Source: an uncultured Flavobacteriales bacterium
Lineage (GTDB): Bacteria > Bacteroidota > Bacteroidia > Flavobacteriales_C > GCA-002722245
Length of the DNA: 34,856 nt
Direction of reading: 5' to 3'
Assembly: GCA_905182585.1 (NCBI GenBank)
Contig: CAJJCC010000018.1
Coordinates: forward strand, 1 to 34,856
This document shows, piece by piece, positions 27,171 through 34,856 of the stretch (positions are counted from its first letter, which is position 1; every line of letters starts with the position of its first letter). Below the pieces are notes generated by a model. It was not told the DNA's origin, searched no databases, and was given only the letters and a program-made list of their open reading frames with translations. Made by a program: the position numbers and the translations under genes.

Positions 27171-27839
27171 TTAAATCAAGTCGATCAGACCTAATTCACC
27201 GGTTGACTTTGGTGTTTTATAATTTTTTATTCCTAGCGCTTCAAGTTGTTTACCTGTAGAAGGGCCCATAGAAATGACATTTTGATGTTTTTCTAACTGA
27301 TATTTTTTAAAATAAGCTCTAGCATTTGATGGACTCGTAAATATTAGAATATCTGCATTTGGGTTATAGAATTCACTTTTCTCCTTTGTTTCATAAACAA
27401 TTAAATCCGTGACTTTTGATTGGTCTATGAAAAATTGTTGGATGGTTCTTTTGGAGATATTCGAAACAGGAAAAACACAGGTTCCTTTATTCACTTCTTT
27501 TACAAACTTTAATCCAATATCTTTAATATTAATTGAATCTCCAACAAAATTAATTTTATTGGTATGCATAGCAAGTTCTTTGTAGGTGCCACGCCCAACA
27601 CACGCAACCTTGCAATTCTCAATTTTCAGGCCTTGTTTAAAGAAGAATCTAACAGAGTTTTTACTCGTGAAAAAGATCCAATCAGCTTGGGGCACCTTAA
27701 TTACATCTATAGCTTTGAATGAAATTAATGAGTTTGCGATCACATTCCATGCAGCATGGATAAAGGGATACTTAAATAAACTGTTTTTATCTAAATTCTT
27801 TGAAATAAAAACAGTTTTATCGTCTACTTTTTTTTTAAT
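27171..27839 (-). CDS. hemD: Uroporphyrinogen-III synthase; N-terminus overlaps hemC end in the -1 frame (initiation mode uncertain)
   Basis: The open frame upstream of the tracked GTG (27743) encodes KTVFISKNLDKNSLFKYPFIHAAWNVIANSLISFKAIDVIKVPQADWIFFTSKNSVRFFF. Only a rare ATT at 27839 could initiate independently before this region. C-terminus DILIFTSPSNARAYFKKY...SMGPSTGKQLEALGI is HemD-like. Confidence 0.85.
   Translation of the reverse strand: MKKKVDDKTVFISKNLDKNSLFKYPFIHAAWNVIANSLISFKAIDVIKVPQADWIFFTSKNSVRFFFKQGLKIENCKVACVGRGTYKELAMHTNKINFVGDSINIKDIGLKFVKEVNKGTCVFPVSNISKRTIQQFFIDQSKVTDLIVYETKEKSEFYNPNADILIFTSPSNARAYFKKYQLEKHQNVISMGPSTGKQLEALGIKNYKTPKSTGELGLIDLI
27778..27833 (-). other. 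Putative programmed -1 frameshift cassette (slippery A-AAA-AAG, 9-nt spacer, 13-bp stem-loop) at the hemC/hemD junction
   Basis: Minus strand: GAA TTA AAA AAA AAG TAG (hemC stop), spacer TAGACGATA, then AAACTGTTTTTAT-(TTCAAAGAATTTAG)-ATAAAAACAGTTT. The -1 frame continues GTA GAC GAT AAA ACT GTT TTT ATT TCA (VDDKTVFIS) into HemD. Confidence 0.6.
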
Positions 27840-28714
27840 TCGGCAATGATTGCATCAGCGGCACCTTCTTCTTTTTCAAACGTTGATTGAAGGCGTTTTA
27901 GCGAACCATCTTCCTGTCCTAAAGCAGTCCACACTTCATATTTACCATTGATTTTTTCGGCATAAACTCCTAGGGGTAACTGACAACCACCATCTAGTTT
28001 ATTTAAAACCCCTCTTTCGATATTTATTAATGATTTAACATTAGGGTTGTTCATTCTTGAAACAACAGCTCTCGTTTTTTCATCGTTTAAACGGATTTGT
28101 AAACCGAGTACACCTTGAGCAGGAGCAGGAACAAACTCTTGTGGTTTTAATACTTCAACATGAAAATCAGATAAGTCAATTTCTAATCTCGTAACCCCAG
28201 CGTTAGCTAAAATGATTGCATCATAGTTTCTTTGGCGCAATTTATCAATTCGTGTCGGAACATTTCCTCTTAAATCCTTAATTTTTGCGTCTGGACGGAA
28301 AGCGGTTAAAAGGGCTTTTCGTCTTGCCGATGATGTACCAACTATAGCACCTTCTTTTAGTCCTAGATTTTTAGAGGCATCATAAGCATCTTTTTGAATT
28401 AAAAGAATATCTGCAGGGTTTGCTCTATCAGAAACCGCAACGACTTCAAGACCCTCAGGTTGATTTGTTTCTAAATCTTTGTGTGAATGAACAGCTAAAT
28501 CTACAGTTTCGCTTAATAAAGCATCTTCTATTTCTTTAGTGAAAAACCCTTTTCCTTCTAATTTATCGAAACTTAAGTTTTGGATTTTATCTCCTTGAGT
28601 TTTTATGATGTTAATTTCAACTTTACAGCCCAATTTTTGTAATTCACTTTTTACAAAATTAGCTTGCCATAAAGCCAAATCACTACCTCTGGTTCCAATC
28701 TTAATTAAAGTCAT
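27824..28714 (-). CDS. hemC: Hydroxymethylbilane synthase (porphobilinogen deaminase)
   Basis: IKIGTRGSDLALWQANFVKSEL, AVHSHKDLETNQPEGLEV, GTSSARRKALL, LRGNVPTRIDKLRQRNYDAIILANAGVTRL, FVPAPAQGVLGLQIR, GGCQLPLGVYA. Confidence 0.97.
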   Translation of the reverse strand: MTLIKIGTRGSDLALWQANFVKSELQKLGCKVEINIIKTQGDKIQNLSFDKLEGKGFFTKEIEDALLSETVDLAVHSHKDLETNQPEGLEVVAVSDRANPADILLIQKDAYDASKNLGLKEGAIVGTSSARRKALLTAFRPDAKIKDLRGNVPTRIDKLRQRNYDAIILANAGVTRLEIDLSDFHVEVLKPQEFVPAPAQGVLGLQIRLNDEKTRAVVSRMNNPNVKSLINIERGVLNKLDGGCQLPLGVYAEKINGKYEVWTALGQEDGSLKRLQSTFEKEEGAADAIIAELKKK

Positions 28715-33435: not shown

Positions 33436-34856
33436 TTATTTAATCAAAATGAACTTTTTACTGTACCATCGCTCCTTATTTTTATCATAGTAGCGTATTA
33501 AATAAATTCCAGTTGGATAATTACTAAGATTATATTTCCAAAAAGTATTGGGATTTCCGCCAAGCTTTGCAATGCTTTTCCCTGATAAATCGGAAATATA
33601 TAGTTCGTTTATCGGTGAATCAGATTGTATATTTACAATCCCTTTTGTTGGATTTGGGTAATAGGAAATATTTATATCAATTTGACCTTTGACCTCAAGT
33701 GTAGAATCAATTATAGCAGTATTCTCATACAAAGTGTTATTACATTCGGAAACGCTAGTATACTGAGTAATAAGTCTAACCATTAAATCATTTAGCTTCT
33801 CAACTTGATAATCATCAGTAGTAGGTTTGAGGTGTGAGCCACCAATTCCACTATCATCAGTTAAAAATGTATAGGTACCATTTGTAGCTAAGGCGATACT
33901 CCTCATCAGGTATTCTGTACTCTTATTAATACTACTCCCTACAATAGGAATGATTCTAATCCCTTTTTTTGACGCCAGTTTCACTGCTTTTTCAATTTTA
34001 TCTAATTCTGATTGATTTTGATGTGGTGGAGCATCAAGAATTAAAAATGCAATTTTGGTTCTGGTTTCATCCCGCCAATTCAAAAACTTACTTGTTATCC
34101 ATAAAGCCTCATCTACAGCTTCAGGTCCATCGCCGCCTCCTGCTGCAAATTGATTTTTTATAAATTCAGAGGTTTTAATAACATCGCTTGTCATTGGACT
34201 CATTTTCGTTAAATACGCATCGGTATGATCTCTGTAAAAAAAAACGCTTCCCGTTTGAATATTAAGAGTTTTGTTTTGATTTCTTATTCGATCGATTACG
34301 TCTAATAATTCTAATTGTAAGTATTTAATTTCATCTCCCATCGATCCTGTTGCATCAACAATAAAGGCTATGTCTACATTTTTTGAAGAAGTACAATTTG
34401 TTGAGATCATAGCGAAGTTAATTCCTTTTGAAAACGGAAAAGGTTTCTTGATCCATTTATCAACCTCATTTTTAGAAATAAGAATTTGATAATTAGTTTT
34501 AGTCTTATCTTTAAATAGATTTGACCATAATTCCGCTTTTCCTGTGTTATCCGTTCTTGATTCAAATATTAATTCATCACCATTGTATAATTTAACACTC
34601 GCGTTAACTACTGGATAGTCTTCGTGGTTTTGAACTTGAACACAAAATCGATGTTGAGGATAAATATTCCAGATTTTATAATAGTTTTCTAAATCAGTTG
34701 ATTCAATATCCGTCCATAATTCCCATTTAGAAAAATCATTTAACTCACCAGCTGTGAGCGTACCTGCAGATATTTCTTCAGTAACCCTCATTTTAGACGT
34801 TTTAGTAACCGAATAATCGTGAATATAATCTCCTTCTGCCATTACCGGGACTGATG
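33436..34856 (-). CDS. VWA-domain secreted protein with T9SS type A C-terminal sorting domain (N-terminus beyond window)
   Basis: VWA motif DIAFIVDATGSMGDEI...GGGDGPEAVDEAL; C-terminus ISYYPNPTKGIVNIQSDSPINELYISDLSGKSIAKLGG...YPTGIYLIRYYDKNKERWYSKKFILIK. Frame remains open to the window edge. Confidence 0.88.
   Translation of the reverse strand, partial: SVPVMAEGDYIHDYSVTKTSKMRVTEEISAGTLTAGELNDFSKWELWTDIESTDLENYYKIWNIYPQHRFCVQVQNHEDYPVVNASVKLYNGDELIFESRTDNTGKAELWSNLFKDKTKTNYQILISKNEVDKWIKKPFPFSKGINFAMISTNCTSSKNVDIAFIVDATGSMGDEIKYLQLELLDVIDRIRNQNKTLNIQTGSVFFYRDHTDAYLTKMSPMTSDVIKTSEFIKNQFAAGGGDGPEAVDEALWITSKFLNWRDETRTKIAFLILDAPPHQNQSELDKIEKAVKLASKKGIRIIPIVGSSINKSTEYLMRSIALATNGTYTFLTDDSGIGGSHLKPTTDDYQVEKLNDLMVRLITQYTSVSECNNTLYENTAIIDSTLEVKGQIDINISYYPNPTKGIVNIQSDSPINELYISDLSGKSIAKLGGNPNTFWKYNLSNYPTGIYLIRYYDKNKERWYSKKFILIK

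Follow-up and report, generated by a model that had tools for sequence, protein, structure and literature searches.

The hemC-hemD junction of an uncultured marine Flavobacteriales bacterium (contig CAJJCC010000018.1; the whole stretch of 34,856 nucleotides analysed is referred to as the window) raises the question of how HemD is produced, as its reading frame opens at a run of nine A residues at the end of hemC and offers no ordinary start codon. The features concerned are as follows.

27824 to 28714, minus strand: hemC (hydroxymethylbilane synthase), 296 aa, ATG to TAG (NCBIfam TIGR00212, E = 2.9e-89; Pfam PF01379, E = 9.3e-74, and PF03900)
27828 to 27836, minus strand: A9 slippery run (sense strand) within the last hemC codons, TTA AAA AAA AAG; proposed site of one added A in the mRNA or of a -1 ribosomal slip
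27824 to 27826, minus strand: hemC stop codon TAG, directly 3' of the A9 run, terminating the unslipped product; TAG or TAA at the equivalent position in five of five genus members
27171 to 27836, minus strand: hemD (uroporphyrinogen-III synthase), open in the -1 frame with respect to hemC, startless before the first beta strand (Pfam HEM4, E = 8.9e-26)
27171 to 28714, minus strand: HemC-HemD fusion reading, 514 aa, via one added A or a -1 slip at the A9 run; a single ORF in the sister genus and in most Bacteroidia
27778 to 27817, minus strand: 13-bp inverted repeat with a 14-nt loop (arms 27805-27817 and 27778-27790), not conserved

The 3' end of hemC reads GAA TTA AAA AAA AAG TAG, with the heptamer A-AAA-AAG in phase and a stop codon immediately behind it, as the initial annotation had described. 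Across the A9 run the -1 frame gives KKKVDDKTVFISKNLDKNSLF... and runs without a stop to the TAA at 27171-27173, which bears out the continuous fusion of about 514 aa that had been proposed. In the window, HemC and HemD domains can be placed on one chain only via recoding; in relatives they are encoded by one ORF.

No ATG, GTG, or TTG was found in the HemD frame of the window upstream of the GTG at 27743, in agreement with the earlier claim that such a codon is lacking ahead of the N-terminal strand. In an AlphaFold2 model of HemD (mean pLDDT of 87), whose best PDB matches are uroporphyrinogen-III synthases, the first strand comprises residues 8 to 11 and the second residues 31 to 34. The GTG at 27743 falls within this second strand and was rejected as an independent start. 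The sole rare start candidate is the ATT at 27837-27839, a position where relatives show GTT, ATT, or CTT, and it was likewise rejected because the codon is not conserved, which also argues against a HemD that is translated separately by re-initiation at a nonstandard codon past the hemC stop.

The junction was compared with those of four relatives from the same genus (JAQXEE010000115.1, cluster4_bin.84; PBLA01000033.1, SP250; PBEC01000018.1, SP330; and PBJD01000025.1, SP2976). In all five species examined (G000 to G004) an A9 run, identical in G001 to G004, is followed immediately by TAG or TAA; HemD occupies the -1 frame and lacks a start codon close to the junction. This frame break is genuine and conserved. 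An alignment of orthologous junctions, as suggested in the initial annotation, confirmed conservation of the phase and of the A run but not of the stem, and the longest invariant stretch in the aligned genus junctions is TTAAAAAAAAA. Across approximately 435 kb from three genus members, the hemC run was kept in six of six comparisons between orthologues and the other runs of nine or more A residues in none of five; the hemC run was also the only run of this length to bridge two long open frames over a break.

In the sister genus, an uninterrupted in-frame HemC-HemD ORF of 517 to 526 aa was present in all six genomes. A scan of named genomes identified in-frame fusions at 74 of 80 loci, the remaining six being four from this genus and two at contig edges; outside this genus, 74 of 76 Bacteroidia loci in the scan are fusion genes, and the other two are those at contig edges. 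As both the sister genus and the great majority of scanned loci are fused in frame, the fusion is most simply regarded as ancestral here and the break as derived. The distance from the HemC GGCQxPxG motif to the first HemD strand is 51 to 55 aa in the recoded products, compared with 48 to 59 aa in natural fusions. Given the one-ORF relatives, the conserved break and A run, the startless HemD, and this spacing, the HemC-HemD fusion put forward in the initial annotation is very probably the intended product. Two sequences titled Chryseobacterium gleum (L025, CAMBXP010000017.1; L026, CAMDPJ010000089.1) grouped with the sister genus, and their organism names look wrong.

A single frame break could also mark a hemD that was recently broken and is becoming a pseudogene, the more so as a second, distant HEM4 gene (L001) is located at G000:C1:12490-13116. 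However, HemD is intact, the break is common to the whole genus, and the second HEM4 gene is also found in sister-genus genomes, whose fusion stays intact. Between the main lineages of the genus dS either reaches about 2 or higher or is saturated, and for pairs with computable dS, dN/dS is 0.05 to 0.10 for HemC and 0.08 to 0.16 for HemD, values that show purifying selection on the coding sequence of both parts. The probability that hemD is decaying is accordingly considered negligible. Many fusion-bearing relatives also carry a second HEM4 gene; L001 has no similarity to the window HemD that was detectable by tblastn and is possibly not a uroporphyrinogen-III synthase.

The same arrangement, a -1 break at A9 or A10 followed by a startless HemD, was identified in 15 further species from six other families: seven species in six genera of family f5, three species of one genus in f53, two species in f126, and one each in f125, f128, and f129. 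The run is A9 in 15 species (the five genus members and G331, G352, G397, G413, G414, G295, G783, G793, G764, and G773) and A10 in five (G400, G412, G766, G767, and G812). Among these 20 species no startless -1 break had a run shorter than nine, and all 20 breaks are restored by the -1 frame. In-frame fusions also exist within f5, f53, and f125, as do two-gene forms with an ordinary start within f5, f53, and f126.

Approximately 240 related hemC/hemD genes were classified, of which 126 were fused. An A run longer than eight was absent from 124 of the fused genes, the other two carrying A9 or longer. Split genes with a run of at least nine and no start numbered 18 by automatic scoring and 20 by hand, the additions being L005, whose one upstream start, a GTG, is located far within hemC, and L305, which automatic scoring had missed; two further split genes (L301 and L302) combine such a run with a start. 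Of the 96 split genes whose run was shorter than nine, 95 had a start codon and one had none. Pattern hits in G497 and G757 (L208 and L209) fell outside the class and were dropped, as they have no hemC. On a HemC+HemD tree the A-run state requires nine changes, at least four of them forced by well-supported branches, but gain and loss are not distinguishable in these counts, and the number of origins is uncertain because this is a quick single-gene tree.

These counts bear on two of the alternatives. Re-initiation would suit the close overlap of the two genes, and many relatives have an ATG, GTG, or TTG start overlapping a TGA precisely there. Against it, none of these codons was found near the junction ahead of the first HemD strand in any of the 20 species, a standard start is present in almost all split genes without the A run, and the startless class coincides with A9/A10; separate translation of HemD is therefore judged very unlikely. 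The second alternative is that the run is truly A10 and the gene a plain fusion, through an assembly error, or that A9 and A10 are mixed at the DNA level by replication slippage (phase variation). A9 runs are error prone and hypermutable, and most of the genomes are metagenome bins. However, the five genus members, assembled separately, and 15 further species agree, just two of the 126 fused relatives carry A9 or longer, and three further frame breaks that the survey detected within fused genes are N gaps rather than indels and were discarded. An artifact or phase variation of this kind appears highly improbable.

Several other layouts were observed during the survey. In L261 (G769, f131), the two genes overlap, with hemD again in the -1 frame, but an A run and a standard start are both absent; the start is perhaps an ATT. 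In L177 to L182 (f10), L193 and L194 (f20), and L218 to L222 (f53), the hemD start overlaps the hemC stop in the -1 frame (GTGA, TTGA, or ATGA), which is translational coupling instead of slippage. L301 and L302 (G1080 and G1106, f20) are two-gene forms in which a GTG start overlaps the hemC TGA and is followed by A9 (GTG AAA AAA AAA GTA), plausibly an intermediate between the start-codon and slippage forms. G790 (L227/L307, f125) encodes the fusion in frame and has A9 at its domain boundary (CTT CTA AAA AAA AAG TCC); it is the mirror of the window arrangement, as slippage would yield a short HemC.

The remaining question is how the frame is restored. The initial annotation had read the junction as a dnaX-type signal, with programmed -1 ribosomal frameshifting at A-AAA-AAG promoted by a downstream stem-loop; A-AAA-AAA could serve as the heptamer in the same way. 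The -1 frame is required at all 20 breaks, A-AAA-AAG is in phase in G000, G003, and G004, and A-AAA-AAA is contained in phase within every A9. The perfect 13-bp inverted repeat it had described is present at the positions listed above and is more stable than composition predicts (z of about -4.1). However, the matching 50 nt of the closest relative, G004, whose HemD is 88% identical to that of the window, fold at just -1.8 kcal/mol, and downstream fold z values in the other 19 species range from -2.6 to +1.4. No conserved downstream stem-loop was found among the 20 species, the window species alone having a stem, when 60 nt past the run were examined with a simple minimum-energy fold, by which pseudoknots would be missed. 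The stem-loop was thus rejected as a conserved element, and the inverted repeat is probably incidental. No shared upstream Shine-Dalgarno-like element was found either, AGGAG and GAGG each occurring in one of the 20 species. The heptamer is altered to A-AAA-AAC in G001, G002, and G397. Seven nucleotides suffice for a ribosomal slippage heptamer, and runs of A7 or A8 are absent from the breaks, though the coding DNA of G001 contains 181 and 66 of these, respectively, compared with 12 of nine or more. With a species-specific stem, a variable heptamer, and runs never below nine, the dnaX-type reading did not stand up and is considered unlikely.

Long A runs are scarce in the two genus members where their frequency was measured. 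In coding regions of G001, 12 runs of nine or more were observed against approximately 35 expected from codon choice, and in those of G003, 6 against approximately 15, a depletion of about threefold and about 2.5-fold, respectively; A8 runs are not depleted (66 against 62 and 36 against 27). The depletion also fits avoidance of replication slippage. Nine is the usual avoidance threshold for such runs (PMC1088944), and at A/T runs single-base insertions dominate, rising exponentially with run length (PMC5574713). With regard to the criteria used for transcriptional slippage, a run of about nine or more A residues lies at the frame transition in all 20 species (15 with A9, five with A10), the two-frame organization, which by the criterion of PMC1088944 should be shared by at least two non-identical homologues, is shared by the five genus species and 15 others, and such runs are under-represented in the coding regions of G001 and G003.

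Slippage by RNA polymerase is favored over dnaX-type frameshifting because the runs are always A9 or A10, avoidance begins at nine, neither the stem nor the upstream element is conserved, and the heptamer is altered in three species. The repair of all 20 breaks by one A fits the insertion bias of the polymerase and -1 ribosomal slippage equally and thus does not discriminate between them; the two processes may act together. Transcriptional slippage on the A9 run, raised as an aside in the initial annotation, is on this comparative sequence evidence the better-supported mechanism.

The explanation that we consider probable is that an ancestral HemC-HemD fusion gene acquired, in this genus, a one-base frame break that became fixed in the A9 run at the domain junction. 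RNA polymerase would slip on this run so that part of the transcripts gain one A. Unslipped mRNA would give free HemC of 296 aa, ending in KKK, and mRNA with A10 would give the HemC-HemD fusion of 514 aa; no other source of HemD is evident at this locus. Cells would be expected to contain free HemC together with some HemC-HemD. Against this explanation, L261 is split with neither a start nor an A run, ribosomal slippage would likewise produce repair by the -1 frame in all 20 species, and the scarcity of long A runs has the alternative reading given above.

Poly-A slippage that gives two length variants is already known. Transcriptional frameshifting has been described for tssM1 of Citrobacter rodentium (A11) and tssM3 of Yersinia pseudotuberculosis (PMC4256274). 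As proposed for the hemC-hemD junction, a stop lies shortly past the poly-A run and slippage adds an A, giving short and full-length proteins, and a relative has an in-frame run where slippage shortens the product, as it would in G790 (PMC4256274). tssM is a secretion gene studied in two species and demonstrated by mass spectrometry, whereas hemCD concerns a fused enzyme of metabolism, recognized by sequence comparison in 20 or more species from seven families. The dnaX gene of Thermus thermophilus (PMC1088944, PMC5009743) is also a cellular gene with an A9 run and two products sharing their N-terminal part, but there the unslipped reading gives the full product and slippage a shortened one, whereas in hemCD, except in G790, the short protein is the unslipped reading and slippage would extend it. 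Slippage-corrected genes of Blochmannia and Buchnera resemble hemCD in that they were ancestrally intact and their reading frame is broken, in a conserved manner, at a long poly-A tract; the genomes are those of endosymbionts, reduced and very rich in AT, and contain more than 100 such tracts (PMC3017870). In contrast, the hemCD genomes are approximately 2 to 7 Mb, runs of A9 or more are depleted where tested, and the break is at a domain junction of one gene in several families. The Escherichia coli dnaX -1 frameshift shares with the window the in-phase A-AAA-AAG and, in the window species only, the downstream stem-loop, but differs in that the stem and upstream element are not conserved in hemCD and the run is always at least nine. 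No report of hemC-hemD recoding, or of slippage in a heme enzyme fusion, was found in the literature searched, which lay mostly outside subscription journals.

HemD converts the HemC product to uroporphyrinogen III, and this linear product is unstable. A tethered HemD would be sensible given this instability, and HemD may be needed in smaller amounts than HemC. A set ratio of HemC to HemC-HemD could have a function of its own. A nonadaptive alternative is that loss of one A was tolerated and that slippage rescues enough of the fusion, which would explain the recurrence as well; such a reading has been proposed for Blochmannia genes (PMC3017870). Conservation throughout the genus despite saturating dS points rather to a stable state but does not prove a benefit. 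We infer that slippage occurs, mainly at the transcriptional and not the ribosomal level, and that the cell benefits from, or at any rate tolerates, the ratio of products it yields. More tentatively, and with some doubt, the A9 junction could be a selected dosage device of several independent origins within a single essential metabolic gene, in which the slippage rate of RNA polymerase sets HemC-HemD against free HemC and through which lineages shift between fusion, slippage, and two-gene forms.

Conserved transcriptional slippage in ordinary metabolic genes outside reduced endosymbionts seems rare in the literature surveyed. Its apparent recurrence for a housekeeping enzyme in at least seven families, beside in-frame fusions and two-gene forms, provides a natural series in which to ask whether such breaks are selected or tolerated. 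Automatic annotation will probably call such hemD genes truncated or missing and may falsely report a broken heme pathway.

A9 and T9 runs are rare in coding DNA here, and one further example was observed in the window, a sense-strand T9 run at 34236-34244 within the minus-strand ORF at 33436-34842.
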